A DNA stretch of 64,000 nucleotides, taken from the NCBI GenBank assembly GCA_016215645.1, contig JACRIX010000027.1, positions 1 through 64,000 on the forward strand, read 5' to 3'. The DNA comes from Rhodocyclales bacterium. GTDB taxonomy: Bacteria; Pseudomonadota; Gammaproteobacteria; Burkholderiales; Rhodocyclaceae. The position numbers and the translations under genes were made by a program. Of this stretch, positions 2,173 through 10,275 are shown piece after piece. The stretch's first letter is position 1; every line of letters starts with the position of its first letter. The notes beneath the pieces are model-generated. The model saw only the letters and a list, made by a program, of their open reading frames with translations. It ran no database searches and was not told where the DNA came from.

Positions 2173-4977
2173 TCAGGTTTCTGCCGCCGATGAACCAACC
2201 GCTGGCGCCGGCGTTGGTGGCGGTGGCTGATATTCCTCGACAACTTCGGCGAGGCGCCGGCCCAGGATGCCGCTGATGTTGAAGTTGAGTTTGGCCATGA
2301 TGTGGGGGAAGAACATCAGGTCGTTTTCGAGGCGATCGTAGTCAAAGCGCAACACGGAAACCGGACCCATGGCGCGCACGTCAGCCGTGCGCAAAGTCGA
2401 GTTGACGAAGCCGATCTCGCCAAAGACATCGCCGGGACCCAGCAGGGCATGACGGCGACCGCCGGCATCGTCCCGGCGCAGCACCTCGATCTGGCCGGCG
2501 ACCACCAGGAACATGCTGCGGCCTCGCGTTCCCTGTTCGATCAGCAATTCACCGTCCTGGTACTTGCCAAGTTCCGAAATCAGGATCGTCTTGCGGATCT
2601 GATAGTTGCTCATTCCACGAAAGAGCGGACTGTTGACCAGCGCCTCGCGCTGCATGGCCATGGCCAGTATTTCATAGAGGCCGACGAGGCGGATGCGCGA
2701 CATGACGAGGGGGGTCACGACGAGGTTCGCAACCAAGGCCACCATCATCGCGGCAGCGGCCAGAGATCCAAATTGCGCGATCAGTGCGAAGTCGGAGAAC
2801 GCCAGAACGCCGCAGCTTGCGGCCAGTGCCAGGCTGATGGCCGTCATCGGTGCCGCTTCATGCTTCAGGGTCTCGACAACCGCCTGGTGGTAGTCATGGG
2901 AATGGCGGCAAAGTTCGCTGTACCGCGAGAACAGGTGGAGGGTGCCGTCGATTGCGACGCAGATGATGATGATGGCAATCAGAACGGTGGTTGTGCTTGC
3001 CGGAATTTCAAGAATGCGCATGCCGCCGAGAACGACCAGCATGGGTAGCACGCTGGGTACCAGGGCAATGAACCCGCCCTTGAGCGAGGTGTACATCAGC
3101 GATACCGCGATGAATACAAGGACCAGAATGGCGGCGGATACTTTCGCCAGATCCGCAAGCAGGCGATCGGCGGCGGCGTTGATCAGCAGGTTTTCGCCGA
3201 CGATGGTGGTAACCATGGTCGGGCCGGCGTAGCCCGCCGCGACCTGGCGCAGTTCGCGCAGATTGCGGTTCAGGCGCGACGACTCCCGAACGCTGTGGCG
3301 GACGGCGATGTTTGCCCGTCGCTGGTCATGGCTGACGTAGGCTTCCAGTGCCGCGCGTGGATAGAGCAGAAGGTACTGGCCGATCAGCTTTCGCGAGGGA
3401 GGGATTGCATAGGCGTCGGGCCGTCCGCCAGCGGCCTCTTGATTGGCCTGGGCAACCAGGTCTGCAAGTGAAAAACTGCGGTCGAAGACCTGTTGCTTGG
3501 CAATGAATGCCTGGATGTCGGAAAGTCGCTTCAGGTTGGCCGGGTCGCGAAAGGCACCGTCCGCGTTGGCATCCAGCGTGATGTAGAACACATTGGCACC
3601 GGTCAGATCCTCGTGCATTCGGTCTGCGGTTTGCACCAGGGGATGGTTTGGACGAAAGAATGCCAAAGGCTCGCTGGTGATGAGCAGACTGTCTGCCTGC
3701 TGGACCACGGTACCGCAGGCGACCGCGGCCAGGAGAATGGTCCAGGTCATTGCGCGATGGCGCAGCATGCCCACGACCCCCGAAACCTGCTGTGCAAACC
3801 CGTCGATGACCGGAAGCTGCCGAAAGCTCATCGGGCGAGCCCCGAACAGCGCATACAGTGCGGGAAGCAGCAGCAAGCTGAGAAATCCACTGGCAAACAT
3901 CGCAAACGCCGCCACGACCCCGAAATCCCGGATCGGCCGGATGTCCGAGAACACGTTCAAGGCGCAGCCAAGCGTTGCCGCCGCAACCGTGGCCAGGAAG
4001 GGCATGCCGAAATTGCCGGCCATGAACTCGTTGCGCTGGCGACGGTCGGGCAGTTCGACATGGTCCGATGCGGCTGGCTTGTCAAAGGTGCCGCTGTAGC
4101 TCATGCGAACGATCTGGATCGTCACCATGACGAGGATCAGGGGAGGCAGGGTGGCGGTCAATAGCGTCAATGGGATGCCCGCAAAGCCCATCATGCCGAA
4201 AGTCCACAACAGCGTCAGCCCACCGACCGCCAGCGTGACTGCGGCGGCGGTGAGGCTACCGCAAATCAGCGCCACCACAATTGCCGTCGCCAACCCGGCC
4301 GCCGGGAGTACCACGCGCAGGTCGTGCTGCAAGCCCTGCCGCATGGCTGCCTCGATTGGCGACGGACCGATATGCATCACGGTGGAGAACTTCGTGCGCG
4401 CAGGCCCCAGGATCTTTTCCAGGGATTCACCGACTTCCGCGACGTCCGATCCGACATATTTCTCTCGGATGGAGATGCCGATCGCGATCGCCTTGCCGTC
4501 GTCGCTGACAATATTCCGCACAGCAAGGGGATTGGTGATGGCCGCCTGGCGGGCGCGAGCAGCTGCTGGTTCGTCGGTGGGAGCGGCAAGCAGGAGCGGA
4601 TGCGCGTACAACTGACCATCAAGGGCTTTTACCGCGGGCGCGGTAAACAGGTCGTCAATGCGTTCGACGAAGGGCAGTCGCCGCAGCGCCTCATGAAGCT
4701 GCTCAAGCGCCGCCAGCTTTTCAGGTGACCATAGCTGTTCATCACGCAGGTAGATGAAGCTGCGCTGATCGGATCCGAACTCGCGTGCGACGTGCAGGTA
4801 GGCTTGGCGATCGATCCCATCCTGTCGGATCAGGCGGTCAAGGCTGGTATCAATGTTGAGGCGCAGGGCGCCGACCATCGCCGCCAGGCTGAGCAGGAGA
4901 ATCAGCAGCAGGCTTTGCCGCGGGTGCCGAACGCCCATGCGCAGGAATCGGGGCAGATGTGGGAATTCGTCGTTCAT
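2173..4977 (-). CDS. RND/MMPL-family exporter with C-terminal cyclic-nucleotide-binding-like domain
   Basis: Multiple TM segments of RND/SSD type; C-terminus SPLFRGMSNYQIRKTILISELGKYQDGELLIEQGTRGRSMFLVVAGQIEVLRR...GPGDVFGEIGFVNSTLRTADVRA is cNMP-binding-like. Confidence 0.85.
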   Translation of the reverse strand: MNDEFPHLPRFLRMGVRHPRQSLLLILLLSLAAMVGALRLNIDTSLDRLIRQDGIDRQAYLHVAREFGSDQRSFIYLRDEQLWSPEKLAALEQLHEALRRLPFVERIDDLFTAPAVKALDGQLYAHPLLLAAPTDEPAAARARQAAITNPLAVRNIVSDDGKAIAIGISIREKYVGSDVAEVGESLEKILGPARTKFSTVMHIGPSPIEAAMRQGLQHDLRVVLPAAGLATAIVVALICGSLTAAAVTLAVGGLTLLWTFGMMGFAGIPLTLLTATLPPLILVMVTIQIVRMSYSGTFDKPAASDHVELPDRRQRNEFMAGNFGMPFLATVAAATLGCALNVFSDIRPIRDFGVVAAFAMFASGFLSLLLLPALYALFGARPMSFRQLPVIDGFAQQVSGVVGMLRHRAMTWTILLAAVACGTVVQQADSLLITSEPLAFFRPNHPLVQTADRMHEDLTGANVFYITLDANADGAFRDPANLKRLSDIQAFIAKQQVFDRSFSLADLVAQANQEAAGGRPDAYAIPPSRKLIGQYLLLYPRAALEAYVSHDQRRANIAVRHSVRESSRLNRNLRELRQVAAGYAGPTMVTTIVGENLLINAAADRLLADLAKVSAAILVLVFIAVSLMYTSLKGGFIALVPSVLPMLVVLGGMRILEIPASTTTVLIAIIIICVAIDGTLHLFSRYSELCRHSHDYHQAVVETLKHEAAPMTAISLALAASCGVLAFSDFALIAQFGSLAAAAMMVALVANLVVTPLVMSRIRLVGLYEILAMAMQREALVNSPLFRGMSNYQIRKTILISELGKYQDGELLIEQGTRGRSMFLVVAGQIEVLRRDDAGGRRHALLGPGDVFGEIGFVNSTLRTADVRAMGPVSVLRFDYDRLENDLMFFPHIMAKLNFNISGILGRRLAEVVEEYQPPPPTPAPAVGSSAAET

Positions 4978-5711
4978 CGCCTTGCCTGGAGTCCGTCAAA
5001 GACGCTGGTCGGGACGTAGTCCGGCGAATGCACGCGGCGCTCGACTTTGAGCAGGGTGCGGCGTCCGTCCCGCAAGTCCTCCATGAGCATCATCGAGGCG
5101 CGCCAGATACCGAATTCATCGGCGCGGGGCGCGCGGTAGCTTAGCCGCCTCGCTGGCCGCCCTTCGCGATCCTGGTAGTCGACGCGACTGAGGAAGAGGT
5201 TGTCCTTGCGCAAATAAAGCTGCCGATCATGATAGCCGGTGGCGCGAACCACGGACGCATCCACCGGTCGGGCGTGAAGGACAAGGTGCGGCACGCGTTC
5301 CAGATCCACATCGCCGCCACGCTCATACCGGAAATCGCCCGCTTGCTCTCCTTCGAGGTCGGCGACCAGGAAGTTGGTGCCAAAAACCGCCGTGGTGGGT
5401 ATCGGGCCACGACGGGTACCGTCGTGTACGTCACGTTCGATTTGTATCGCCGCCCCTTTCAGTTCGGACGGGGATTCGACGACGTGCAGTTTTCGGGTAA
5501 CGTCACCCGTGCTCTGCGCGTAGTAGCGCAGGGTGCGCAGGCCAAGTTGTCCATGCCGATCCGAAATTACCATTGCATGTTCTTCGTAGGTGGCCGTCGG
5601 CGGCGTGTGGCGCCTCAGCGATTCCTCGATCAGTTCGCGCGCCGTTTGGCCCTGGGCGATTCCGGTCAGGCAAGCGATGACGCAGAAGATCGCGATGAAA
5701 ACGAGCTTCAT
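4974..5711 (-). CDS. Outer membrane lipoprotein-sorting (LolA-like) protein
   Basis: Signal peptide MKLVFIAIFCVIACLTGIAQG; LolA-like beta-rich sequence; 4-bp overlap with the RND exporter start. Confidence 0.75.
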   Translation of the reverse strand: MKLVFIAIFCVIACLTGIAQGQTARELIEESLRRHTPPTATYEEHAMVISDRHGQLGLRTLRYYAQSTGDVTRKLHVVESPSELKGAAIQIERDVHDGTRRGPIPTTAVFGTNFLVADLEGEQAGDFRYERGGDVDLERVPHLVLHARPVDASVVRATGYHDRQLYLRKDNLFLSRVDYQDREGRPARRLSYRAPRADEFGIWRASMMLMEDLRDGRRTLLKVERRVHSPDYVPTSVFDGLQARR

Positions 5712-6310
5712 GGGCCACCCGCCTTGCGCACGCTGTCGGCAATCGCGCTCGCCAGTTCGCCGTATACCGTGCTCATGGACGCCACCAGCGCCGGGTAGGA
5801 ATCGGCTGCGGATGTGCCTGAGAACGACGCCTCGCGGGTGAGCAGCAAACCGGCATCCGCGCCGCGCGTCAGCCACCAGCGGGCGGTAAGCCGGACACGT
5901 CCGCCCGACTCGCGCTCGAAGCGGAGTATTTCCAGGTCCAGGCGATAGGCGGGCTTCATCGCGGCATGCAGGGGCGTGGCAAAGACGCGGTCACTGCCGA
6001 GGTCGCGGCCGAGGTTTGCGACAAGAATCCGCGTCATGTCTTCACGCAGGTCGCCTCCCCAGTGGTCGAATTCGGCGATCTGCAAGCGATGGTTTTCGTC
6101 ACGGGTGACGATTTGCGGCCGATCGAGGTAGTGGGGCAGCCGAACTTCACGAACCAGCAGCGTGGCCGGCTGTTGACTGCTTTCCGTGGCAGATCGCTCC
6201 GTCATGGGTTCGAGCATGTACAAGCGGGTGGTCGGGGTACTGCCAAGGCAGCCGGCAAGACTCGTGGCAGCGACCAGGCCGGCGAGGACCCAATGGACCT
6301 GAACTTTCAT
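5708..6310 (-). CDS. pqiC: ABC-type transport auxiliary lipoprotein, PqiC-like
   Basis: Lipobox LVAATSLAGC followed by TRLYMLEPM; directly downstream of pqiB. Confidence 0.8.
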   Translation of the reverse strand: MKVQVHWVLAGLVAATSLAGCLGSTPTTRLYMLEPMTERSATESSQQPATLLVREVRLPHYLDRPQIVTRDENHRLQIAEFDHWGGDLREDMTRILVANLGRDLGSDRVFATPLHAAMKPAYRLDLEILRFERESGGRVRLTARWWLTRGADAGLLLTREASFSGTSAADSYPALVASMSTVYGELASAIADSVRKAGGP

Positions 6311-7977
6311 TTCTGCTCCTGGTCTTTTGCCGGCGTCTTGCCCAGCAGCAGTGCCTGGGGATTGCGTTCCAGCGTTTCCACCAGATGTCGCAGCGAGCGG
6401 GCAGTGGCGGCAAGCTCCTGTGTCAGGCGTACCGATTGATGGTGCAGTGGCGCGTCGGGAGCAATCACGCCGTCGACCAGCGCCATGGTCTGCCTGGATT
6501 TTTCGAGCGCATCGCGCGCCGCGGCCAGCGCCTGTTCCAGATTCGTTGCGATTGGTTCCGCACGGGCATCCACCGCGCGCAGGATGACGCGTACGCTGGC
6601 CAGCGAGGCGGCGAGGTCGGACAGCGCCGCCTGCATCTGCGGTCCGTTGGCCAGGGCATGGGTGCCCTTGAGCGTTCCTTGCAGGTCGGCGCCAAGTGCC
6701 GCGTAATCGACCCGGTCAAGTTGCTCCATGATGCCCGCGGCCGTGGCGATCATCTGGTCGAATCCGCCACCGCGGATGGTGGGCAGTTCAGGTTCGGCAT
6801 GGCCCGCCTTGGCGAGCCGCATCGGCGACTTCGGTTGCATGACCAGATCCACGAACAATTGCCCGGTCAACAGGTTTCCTGATTGCAGGCGGGCGCGCAG
6901 GCCATTCTTCACCAGGGTCTGGAAGGCCTCGCGCGGGGCGCGCTTCATGCGGTCGCTGCGGGTCGCAATGCGCTCCGGCTCAAGCTCGATCACCACCGGT
7001 AGGCGGAAGCTCGATTTCCCTTCGTCGTATTCCAGGCGCACGTCCACCACCGAGCCCACCTTGATGCCTTTGAATTCCACCGGCGCCCCGATCGTCAGCC
7101 CGCGCAGGGAGTCCTCAAAATAGAGCGAGTAGCGGACTTTGCTGACATACGACTGGTCCTTGATCGACTTCAGGTCGTCGTGCAGGGTGAAAACCAGTCC
7201 GGCGATATCCTCGACGCCCCCGTCCTGGAGGTCGGGCGTGTCGAAGGCGATGCCGCCGAACAGCAGGGCTTGCAGTGATTCGGTCTTCAGCCGCAGGCCG
7301 TCCGGGCCGACCGAAAGATCGATGCCGCTGCCGCTCCAGAAACGGGTATTGCTGCGCACCAGGCCGTCGAACGGTGCCTTGACGAAGGCATGCAACAGGA
7401 CGTTCTGAAAATCATTCGCCATCTCGTAGCCGAGGATTTCGCCGGCAACGATGCCTTGGTAATAGATCGGGGAACCGCGATCGAGCGAGCCTAGCTGACG
7501 CGCCATCAGGGTGACCTGTTTGCCTGCGGTGTCGGCATGCACCACCGGGGGAGACTCCAAACCGACGAACAGCGTCTGCGGCGCGCCTTGCCCCGGCTCG
7601 ATTTCGATGTAGGTTCCGGACATCAGCGTGCCAAGCCCCGAAATGCCGCGTGCGCTGAGCGTCGGCCGTACTACCCAGAAGCGTGAGTCGCGGCGCAGGA
7701 AGTGGGCGGCGTCCTTCTTCAGCCTGGCGAGGACCTCCACGCGGGAAAAGTCGGCGCTGAAGCGTACGCCTTCAACGATTCCGATGCTGAGGCTCTTGTA
7801 TTTGATGCGCGTCTTGTCGACCTCGATGCCGTCGGCCGTGCGGAAGGTGATCGTCACCAGCGGGCCCTGGTCGGTCAGGGTATGCAGGATGAGCCAGGCG
7901 CCGATTACCGCCGTGAGTATCGGAATGAGCCAGATCAGCGAGGGTCCGCTGCGCTCCCGCACTATGGGTTCGTTCAT
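6307..7977 (-). CDS. pqiB: Intermembrane transport protein PqiB (multi-MCE domain)
   Basis: SGPSLIWLIPILTAVIGAWLI, VTITFRTADGIEVDKTRIKYKSLSIGIVEGVRFS and repeated MCE segments. Confidence 0.92.
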   Translation of the reverse strand: MNEPIVRERSGPSLIWLIPILTAVIGAWLILHTLTDQGPLVTITFRTADGIEVDKTRIKYKSLSIGIVEGVRFSADFSRVEVLARLKKDAAHFLRRDSRFWVVRPTLSARGISGLGTLMSGTYIEIEPGQGAPQTLFVGLESPPVVHADTAGKQVTLMARQLGSLDRGSPIYYQGIVAGEILGYEMANDFQNVLLHAFVKAPFDGLVRSNTRFWSGSGIDLSVGPDGLRLKTESLQALLFGGIAFDTPDLQDGGVEDIAGLVFTLHDDLKSIKDQSYVSKVRYSLYFEDSLRGLTIGAPVEFKGIKVGSVVDVRLEYDEGKSSFRLPVVIELEPERIATRSDRMKRAPREAFQTLVKNGLRARLQSGNLLTGQLFVDLVMQPKSPMRLAKAGHAEPELPTIRGGGFDQMIATAAGIMEQLDRVDYAALGADLQGTLKGTHALANGPQMQAALSDLAASLASVRVILRAVDARAEPIATNLEQALAAARDALEKSRQTMALVDGVIAPDAPLHHQSVRLTQELAATARSLRHLVETLERNPQALLLGKTPAKDQEQK

Positions 7978-9284
7978 GCGGGCACCTCGAACGGAGTCGG
8001 TCGTGCCGCCGTCGCCCGATCCCAGACCAGGCGTGGATCGAAGGCATGGGCCGCCATCATGGTAAAGACCACTGCCGCGCCGAAGAAGGTCGCGCCGAAC
8101 CCCGGAGATACCGTCGCCAGTCCGTCCATTCGAACCAGTGCTACCATGATCCCGACGAGGAAGATATCGACCATCGACCAGGCTCCGATCACTTCGGTGA
8201 AATGATAGAGCTGTGTGCGGTCACGCAGGCGCCAGGCCGAGCCCCGCTGCACGGTGAGGAGCAGGAATCCGAGCACCAGGATCTTGGTGATCGGTACCAC
8301 AAAGCTGGCAAAAAAAACGAGCAGCCCAAGCGGCCAGGCGCCATCCTCGATCAGATGGATCACACCCGACATGATGGTGCTCGGTTCGCCCTGGCCGAAG
8401 CGGGTTACGGTCATTACCGGATACAAATTGGCCGGTAACAGCAACAGCGTGGCCGACGCCAGCAATGCCCAGGTCCGGGAGATGCTGTTCGGATAACGCG
8501 TGCCGCTTACCGTACTGGTGCAGCGCGGGCAGGTGCAGATCCCGCCGGCGGGAGGATGTTTGATCAGAAGTTCGCAGATCGGACACGTCGCATAGCCGAG
8601 GGTGGCTGCGCTTTCGTCGCTACGGTATTTCGCCCCTGGATCGGGCACGGGGCCCTGGCGCGGCCATAGCGCGGCAGGGTCGAAACTTGCCGCGGCGGCG
8701 GCGGAGATGACCAGCAAACCAATGAACGCGTAAAAGGCAACCCCCGGAATGATCACCGCCAGGTCCTGCAACTTCACTACCGATACCAGCAGGCCAAGCA
8801 TGAATACGCCGATCAGGCTCCATGGACTCAGGATACGCACCAGTCGCCAGACCAGGGTCATTTTGGGCGGACGGATGCCTGCACGCAAAGGCAGCAACAG
8901 GTAGAGCATCGCGACAATGGTCAGGAAGGGGAAAACCACGCTGGTGAGCAGTACCAGCAGCCCGATCTCGCCCATGCCGGCCTGCTGCAGCGCAAAGCCC
9001 CCCGACACGAGCAGGCTTTGCTCGATGCGGTCGCCATACTGCAAGGAGACGAAAGGGAAGACATTGGCGATCACCAGGAGAATAAAGGCCGCAAGGTAGA
9101 GCGCCGAGCTGTGGTCGAGGCTGTGCGGCAGATTGCGATACAGCATTCCGCCGCAGCGACGGCACGACGCTTTGGCGCCCGCGGCGATGTCCACAATTCG
9201 ATGCAGGCAGTCGCAAGTACCGCAGGCGATCAAGCCGTCGGATGCATACCCCGGAATTTCCCGATCACTAGGGTCTGTTCTCAT
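7974..9284 (-). CDS. pqiA: Paraquat-inducible protein A, integral membrane protein; ATG lies inside the terminal repeat of the MITE
   Basis: CGTCDCLHR...CRRCGG and CPICELLIKH...CTCPRC zinc-ribbon motifs plus two PqiA membrane domains. Confidence 0.9.
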   Translation of the reverse strand: MRTDPSDREIPGYASDGLIACGTCDCLHRIVDIAAGAKASCRRCGGMLYRNLPHSLDHSSALYLAAFILLVIANVFPFVSLQYGDRIEQSLLVSGGFALQQAGMGEIGLLVLLTSVVFPFLTIVAMLYLLLPLRAGIRPPKMTLVWRLVRILSPWSLIGVFMLGLLVSVVKLQDLAVIIPGVAFYAFIGLLVISAAAAASFDPAALWPRQGPVPDPGAKYRSDESAATLGYATCPICELLIKHPPAGGICTCPRCTSTVSGTRYPNSISRTWALLASATLLLLPANLYPVMTVTRFGQGEPSTIMSGVIHLIEDGAWPLGLLVFFASFVVPITKILVLGFLLLTVQRGSAWRLRDRTQLYHFTEVIGAWSMVDIFLVGIMVALVRMDGLATVSPGFGATFFGAAVVFTMMAAHAFDPRLVWDRATAARPTPFEVPA

Positions 9285-9534
9285 TCAGGCGACGGCGGCG
9301 AAGGAGCTTGCCTGGCTGCAGGGCAAGGCGGGAGGAGCGATGTTTGGTCGTTCCAAATGAGCGACGACCAACGCGGCCATGCGGCCAGGCAAGCCCTTCC
9401 CGCAGGGTTGCGCAGGAAGGCGTGTCTGCCGCGTTGCGACGCTTGCCCGCAGATGACTGTGGGCAGCGCACCGCGCCTTGCATCCATCGCCTTCCTGACG
9501 CAACGCAGCTCGCCGACTGAATGAGAACAGACCC
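9271..9534. mobile_element. MITE-like non-autonomous element, 264 bp, with TA flanking duplication
   Basis: Perfect terminal inverted repeats GGGTCTGTTCTCATTCAG (9271-9288) and CTGAATGAGAACAGACCC (9517-9534), flanked by TA (9269-9270 and 9535-9536). Internal inverted repeats GCTTGCCTGGC/GCCAGGCAAGC (9306-9316/9384-9394) and CAGGAAGGCG/CGCCTTCCTG (9413-9422/9488-9497). No transposase ORF. Confidence 0.85.
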
Positions 9535-9789
9535 TAAGCTTCCAGCCCACCGGTTCGTCTTGTCACGTTGAAAGCTGCGGAGTCTATCTCGAATCCCTCG
9601 TCCGTATCGTGGCTTTGGTGGTTCAGTTGAGCCTCGACGCATGACGCCAGAGAACCCGCCGATGGCATTTCACTAATCTTTTGGTATTGTGTGTCGTGTT
9701 TCAGGTAAGCACAATGCGCTTTCACGCGCGGTCTAGCCATCGACTGGCCAAGTTGCCGCGCAAGAATATTTGCCAAGGGATGGAACTGA

Positions 9790-10275
9790 TTGACCAAGCA
9801 TAGCGTTCTGTTCGTTTGTACCGGCAACATCTGCCGTTCGCCGACGGCCGAAGGAGTGGCCCGAGGGCTTGCGCAACGGCGTGGCCTGGACTCCCGCTTT
9901 TACTTCGAATCTGCCGCGACGCACGGCTACCATGTCGGGGATCCGCCCGATCCCCGCGCACTGCGGGCAGCCCTGGCCCGCGGTTACGATCTTTCTGCGC
10001 AGCGGGCGCGGCGGGTCACCGAGTTCGATTTCGAGCGCTTCGACCTTGTGCTGGCGATGGGATATGACCACCTCGACTGGCTGCGTCGTGCCTGCCCGCG
10101 CCAGCATCATGGAAAGCTGCGCTTGTTCCTTTCCTATGTCGAGGGCGATTCGGCCGGTGAAGTACCCGACCCCTATTACGGCGGTTTGGCTGGCTTCGAC
10201 GAAGTTCTTGATCACGTCGAGGCGGTTGTGGACCGCCTCTTGCGGGAACTGTCCGCGCCTCCGGGTCGGACATAA
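9790..10275 (+). CDS. Low-molecular-weight protein-tyrosine phosphatase (TTG start)
   Basis: VLFVCTGNICRSPTAEGV (CX5R P-loop) and the DPYYGG motif near the C-terminus. Confidence 0.92.
   Translation: MTKHSVLFVCTGNICRSPTAEGVARGLAQRRGLDSRFYFESAATHGYHVGDPPDPRALRAALARGYDLSAQRARRVTEFDFERFDLVLAMGYDHLDWLRRACPRQHHGKLRLFLSYVEGDSAGEVPDPYYGGLAGFDEVLDHVEAVVDRLLRELSAPPGRT

Follow-up and report, generated by a model that had tools for sequence, protein, structure and literature searches.

Probable translation of pqiA from a start codon in the terminal inverted repeat of an IS5-family MITE, by coupling to the displaced original start

Insertions into the early codons of a gene are expected to knock it out. 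The element family described here can sit there and leave the predicted protein nearly unchanged. The question raised by the pqiA locus of a Rhodocyclales bacterium is from which codon the interrupted gene is now translated and how ribosomes arrive there. The analysis covered a 64-kb stretch of DNA (the window), in which pqiA and its operon lie on the minus strand. The element is a non-autonomous IS5-family MITE of 264 bp (9271–9534), recognised by its terminal inverted repeats (TIRs) and TA flanks, which has no transposase and is absent from the corresponding site of a relative. Alignment with that empty site places the two copies of the TA target duplication at 9269–9270, nearer to pqiA, and at 9535–9536, upstream. 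With the TA included, the TIRs measure 26 nt each (9269–9294 adjoining pqiA and 9511–9536 upstream), and their 20-nt core occurs twice in the window against an expected 0.01 occurrences. Read outward, the TIR adjoining pqiA (CTGAATGAGAACAGACCCTA) contains a start codon and stops in the surrounding frames.

As a preliminary description of the window had stated, an ATG at 9282–9284 lies inside this TIR, with an in-frame TGA (9287–9285) directly upstream and no Shine–Dalgarno sequence ahead of it. From this ATG runs an ORF of 436 aa (7974–9284), the product of which begins MRTDP and matches Pfam PqiA (1.2e-91) and TIGR00155. In this frame, the TIR ATG is the only upstream start left that yields the intact conserved N-terminus (MRTDPSDREIPGY...). 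The gene is followed by pqiB (6307–7977, with MlaD domains), a pqiC-like lipoprotein gene (5708–6310) and, by domain match, a LolA-like gene (4974–5714) and a fifth and last gene for an MMPL/RND transporter with a cyclic-nucleotide-binding domain (2173–4977). These genes overlap by a few nucleotides, mostly four, as pqiA does with pqiB (ATGA) and pqiB with the pqiC-like gene, and all five ORFs are intact. The window belongs to a metagenome-assembled genome (MAG) of 106 contigs that is 80% complete, a setting in which the whole arrangement could be an artefact of assembly or binning. That is hardly credible, since the element is cleanly flanked by TA on a 118-kb contig with both flanks conserved, and a like anatomy recurs in unrelated assemblies, including a genome of two contigs (G172).

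The state of the gene before the insertion can be read from its nearest relative (G006, 90% identity in pqiA, public contig CAJBYR010000092.1), which is without the element. The empty site (L016/L068) reads GTG GGC TGG AAG GTA AGT GAT CGG. Removal of the element and one TA from the window gives GTG GGC TGG AAG CTT AGT GAT CGG, the junction that had been predicted. The two sites are of equal length with two mismatches; the aligned stretches are CGGTGGGCTGGAAGGTAAGTGATCGGG in G006 and, with the element and one TA taken out, CGGTGGGCTGGAAGCTTAGTGATCGGG in the window. Sixteen betaproteobacterial orthologues from named assemblies (L068–L083) were also compared. In 15 of them a GTG stands exactly ten codons ahead of a (P/R)GY motif, which is replaced by PVY in one orthologue, while the intervening codons vary freely; L081 alone has no GTG at this position. 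Because the empty site and 15/16 orthologues share the position of the GTG, the comparison shows that pqiA originally started at GTG 9548–9550, its protein beginning MGWK[LV]SDREIPGY.... The N-terminus proposed earlier is thus matched in G006 except for one residue, and a relative whose pqiA starts elsewhere, which had been named as evidence against the proposal, was not what the empty site revealed. In the predicted protein, the insertion exchanged MGWKL for MRTDP and left the length unaltered.

A pqiA orthologue is present in five congeners of the window genome; this type of pqiA was found in only 6 of 31 Sulfuritalea genomes, several of the others having more distant, split PqiA-like matches. 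The Shine–Dalgarno sequence of the old GTG is weak. In two congeners (L020/L069 and L019/L072), a mini-ORF ATG AAR GAY TGA lies directly upstream of the pqiA GTG and is perhaps a native coupling leader.

The preliminary description had spoken of a replaced start codon. The TIR ATG does now open the pqiA ORF, but the GTG was not removed. On the minus strand, the order toward pqiA is the GTG (9550–9548), which begins 14 nt of old coding sequence, then TA, the element (9534–9271), the second TA and AGT GAT CGG GAA. The net gain of 266 nt shifts the frame, as had been pointed out, but the accompanying view that the TIR ATG falls in frame by chance did not hold. The TIR ends in TGAATGAGAACAGACCCTA(G). 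If a codon boundary falls between the T and the A of the target site (NNT ANN), translation enters the element as ..T AGG GTC.., and the exit, CCT Ann, is in the frame of the TIR ATG, so that in-frame TIR starts follow from the phase of insertion and not from a lucky element length. An in-frame insertion of the type known from Rickettsia palindromic elements (RPE) is not what is seen at pqiA, as the net gain is 266 nt and a TGA ends the frame at the element end. In coding DNA of the window (30 long ORFs), the favourable phase is that of 28% of all TA and of 13 of 24 YTAR sites. The early-codon insertions are in this phase in five cases out of five (chance about 0.002–0.05), which is only mildly unlikely by chance and would fit the survival of tolerated insertions. 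In 20 out-of-phase ORFs from 94 distinct ends, no early-codon interruption was recognised by Pfam, which a decayed gene could escape; each gene that Pfam recognised there begins downstream of the element at a start of its own.

The five loci emerged from a survey in which each distinct element end was translated outward. At all five, a host gene starts inside the TIR and its TIR-derived start reads MRTDP, which suggests that the family supplied start codons to at least four genes besides pqiA. It was found that rsmE begins at the TIR ATG in G004 and G024 (MRTDPRFFCPFPL), while 27 uninserted congeners have MIPRFFCP or a sequence close to it. A conserved 436-aa gene of unassigned family in G021 has the TIR start MRTDPSHSGIEL, and its empty relatives begin MNSHSSIEL or MTSHSSIEL. 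The remaining two are a LetS/BarA-like sensor kinase gene of another genus (G074, MRTDPSIRQHIL) and a 270-aa gene of no recognised family in G172, which starts MRTDPRKWRIS and has a displaced GTG preceded by GGAGGAGG. Uninserted relatives establish the ancestral starts at three loci (pqiA, rsmE and the 436-aa gene). At the other two, the kinase gene and the G172 gene, no empty site came to light in an orthologue, and the ancestral start is suggested by the start codon that was displaced to the upstream side of the element.

At rsmE, the target duplications have decayed to CG..CA in G024 and AA..TA in G004, yet both the ATG and the frame are retained. The two elements (L046 in G024 and L047 in G004) are 94% identical, although dS between the two rsmE genes is 0.60; in G013, rsmE is nearer to that of G004, the site is empty and the upstream flank is different. 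The two elements may have inserted independently, or recombination or a constraint on the element may be at work. A 507-bp IS5 remnant (L122:1082-1590, G019:C54) lies ahead of a rhamnosyltransferase-like gene, which is in frame with a TTG that stands where the TIR ATG would be; this may be a sixth case, starting from TTG. It was kept out of the count as ambiguous and having no clear ancestral start. Likewise, L132, L137, L141 and similar ORFs from a TIR ATG were not counted, as the native start lies downstream or the protein is unrecognisable.

How ribosomes might reach the TIR ATG is suggested by what became of the old start. The native start codon is retained 5–17 nt upstream of the element at all five loci. 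At pqiA, the frame of the GTG stays open across the element as a leader ORF of 89 codons (9281–9550), and the TGA that ends it (9281–9283) overlaps the new ATG as ATGA (9284–9281). The displaced-start ORFs of the five loci are open through the element for 79–91 codons. Counted from the TIR ATG, they stop at +1 (pqiA), −3 (the G021 gene), −3 (rsmE in both species), +14 (the kinase) and +1 (the G172 gene); stops near the ATG are a fixed trait of the TIR end. An upstream stop that overlaps or adjoins the start, as is required for termination-reinitiation, is thus found at the TIR ATG loci. The openness of the leader frame is no more than chance would give (0.52 by shuffling of this GC-rich sequence), and no coding selection was seen. 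A conserved peptide encoded by the element was considered and rejected, since the chance of an open frame is 0.52 one way and 0.18 both ways and third codon positions are not enriched for substitutions. The element region matched no known RNA family.

Folding predictions bear on the choice between coupling and direct initiation. A single long hairpin is predicted for the read-through mRNA, at −198 kcal/mol where shuffles give −146 (z −9.3), in which the upstream TIR pairs into the stem that covers the new AUG, so that the AUG sits in the terminal stem. Opening of the region from −13 to +13 around the AUG is predicted to cost 36.7 kcal/mol in the read-through RNA and 10.8 when the left arm is single-stranded; across the loci, the corresponding values are 28–42 and 3–11 kcal/mol. 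For comparison, the predicted cost of opening the GTG is 10.8 kcal/mol in the joined empty site and 10.4 in the inserted allele. These models suggest that de novo initiation at the AUG would be poor on read-through mRNA, and that the AUG would come free when a ribosome from the old start has passed the left arm and terminates there. Since the AUG is buried in a stem yet would be freed by a crossing ribosome, termination-reinitiation from the old start is taken as the likeliest route.

The sequence of events would then be as follows. The non-autonomous element entered pqiA at a TA where codon 5 meets codon 6, and the old promoter would still drive transcription. Ribosomes would initiate at the old GTG, traverse the element on the open 89-codon frame and unwind the TIR stem in which the AUG is buried; after terminating at the ATGA, they would reinitiate and make a near-normal PqiA. 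The element would in this way bring its own damage control. We assign a probability of roughly 0.6 to this reading, in which the TIR ATG is the new start and is reached from the old GTG by translational coupling; coupling in place of de novo initiation at the TIR AUG is its inferred part. Of 14 ATGA and TGATG gene pairs tested, 13 showed strict coupling (PMC6728339), and coupling requires overlaps or very short gaps and declines within tens of nucleotides (PMC10666635). The stop and start overlap or adjoin in those pairs as they do here, and the pqi operon itself has such overlaps. The difference is that the overlap at pqiA is made by a transposon end and that the part of the upstream 'gene' is played by the displaced start of pqiA itself.

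Transcription was the concern behind another earlier claim, namely that the insertion separates the operon from its old promoter and leader. The former 5' leader with the probable promoter (9545–9605, conserved with G006, GAGGGATTCGAGATAGACTCCGCAGCTTTCAAC) has no sigma-70 consensus match and now lies upstream of the element, displaced by 266 nt. The displacement is real, but no terminator-like site was found within the element, and a cut-off is not supported. The main rival to coupling is that the element provides both the ATG and an internal outward promoter, in which case the mRNA would be without the left arm and the AUG would be translated de novo without a Shine–Dalgarno sequence. Transcripts begun inside the element are predicted to open the AUG for 9–10 kcal/mol, like the ancestral GTG, and MITEAba12 is reported to have an active outward promoter beside its MQQS fusions (PMC6382973). 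Against it, a consensus scan of 9180–9800 gave no sigma-70-like match, although such a scan is a weak test, and the AUG would still have to be used with no Shine–Dalgarno sequence. An internal promoter is considered unlikely.

Alternatively, PqiA could start 11 codons past the element, at an in-frame TTG inside the gene, and be slightly shorter, with the TIR ATG unused. TTG is a legal start codon and every Pfam PqiA domain lies downstream of it. However, between the GTG and the TTG the orthologues retain the residues PGYAxDGL while their codons differ synonymously, so that this part is coding, and no Shine–Dalgarno sequence is apparent ahead of the TTG. The internal TTG is regarded as a highly improbable start.

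The insertion could also have silenced pqiA with polar effects on the operon, the in-frame ATG being incidental and the gene decaying. The predicted burial of the AUG at about 37 kcal/mol in the read-through RNA, the failure to find either a Shine–Dalgarno sequence or a promoter, and the lack of this pqiA in most Sulfuritalea genomes would all agree with such decay. However, the five operon ORFs are all intact, and rsmE in two species has a like arrangement with dN/dS of 0.11 at dS 0.60, the ATG and frame being retained. At pqiA, dN/dS is 0.16 against G006, a value that spans time before and after the insertion, and for the G021 436-aa gene it is 0.10–0.15 against relatives, which like the rsmE value includes pre-insertion time. 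It would therefore seem that pqiA, rsmE and the 436-aa gene remain under purifying selection, with the caution that dN/dS mixes pre- and post-insertion time. Silencing is judged quite unlikely.

A further proposal sees in the element ends a start-codon cassette shaped to limit damage, with stops in the frames beside an outward ATG that is hidden in a stem opened only by a translating ribosome. This is doubtful. If it were true, early-codon insertions, including those in important genes, would be near-neutral relays, and only translated genes would be restarted. The family offers a concrete case for asking whether transposon ends are selected for low damage via translational coupling. It also implies that the histories of genes annotated with an MRTDP start, or with a start within a repeat, may be misread.

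MITE-gene fusions as such are already known. Those covered in reviews and case studies are in frame and internal or C-terminal (PMC10969869, PMC5896051). Rickettsia palindromic elements and Coxiella QMITEs are likewise small repeats that join host proteins, but they are passed in frame or extend C-termini (PMC10969869), whereas here the reading frame is interrupted and taken up again from a start codon in the element end. The closest likeness is with MITEAba12 of Acinetobacter, also a non-autonomous IS-derived element, the TIR of which, read outward, gives MQQS as the first four residues of three neighbouring genes in silico, as reported for three genomes (PMC6382973). As far as is reported, MITEAba12 has 9-bp target duplications, in contrast to the TA here, and an outward promoter with RNA-seq support, and neither an empty-site comparison nor a leader-ORF relay or start-codon occlusion is described (PMC6382973). 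The element described here differs in giving MRTDP at five loci, with three ancestral starts confirmed by uninserted relatives. In the open-access literature, no report was found that combines empty-site evidence for displaced ancestral starts with a start/stop relay in the TIR, and it is this combination that appears to be new.

Copies of 264–270 bp are spread across the genus, which named hits assign to Sulfuritalea. The family's other genera have a few, and none was found among 386 sampled genomes from the order's other families. The pqiA element has copies of 87–93% identity in five congeners. TA flanks nearly all copies, mostly inside YTAR, in answer to the earlier suggestion that a lack of TA duplication elsewhere would speak against the insertion. 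IS5 copies of 906 bp in G022 and G006 (L106, L107) have TA flanks and closely matching ends (TAGGGTSTGTTCTCA), and their transposase is encoded by two ORFs (NF033580, DUF4096 + DDE). These likenesses indicate that the 906-bp IS5 is the autonomous relative of the 264-bp element. The latter is a transposase-less derivative, its interior not being IS-derived as far as seen. It has the properties of an IS5-family MITE, namely TIRs in common with an autonomous IS, a short target duplication, a length below 500 bp, no transposase and several copies. No match to the NF033580 transposase was obtained in the window's own assembly, at its 80% completeness.

This assembly holds one full copy and five palindromes of 46–55 bp that are made of TIRs (L009–L013; G000 C2:557-609, C2:17653-17706, C12:12553-12607, C37:43231-43283 and C43:16978-17024). 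The palindromes are near-perfect, consist of two TIRs alone, are flanked by TA and lie mostly just past gene ends; they could be terminators or minimal transposition units. One of them, of 53 bp (L012:5-634, G000:C37), supplies a gene with its stop codon (TTT TAG); the product of this gene ends ...WPGLRIDF and was judged by eye to be phosphomannomutase-like, so the element family donates stop codons too.
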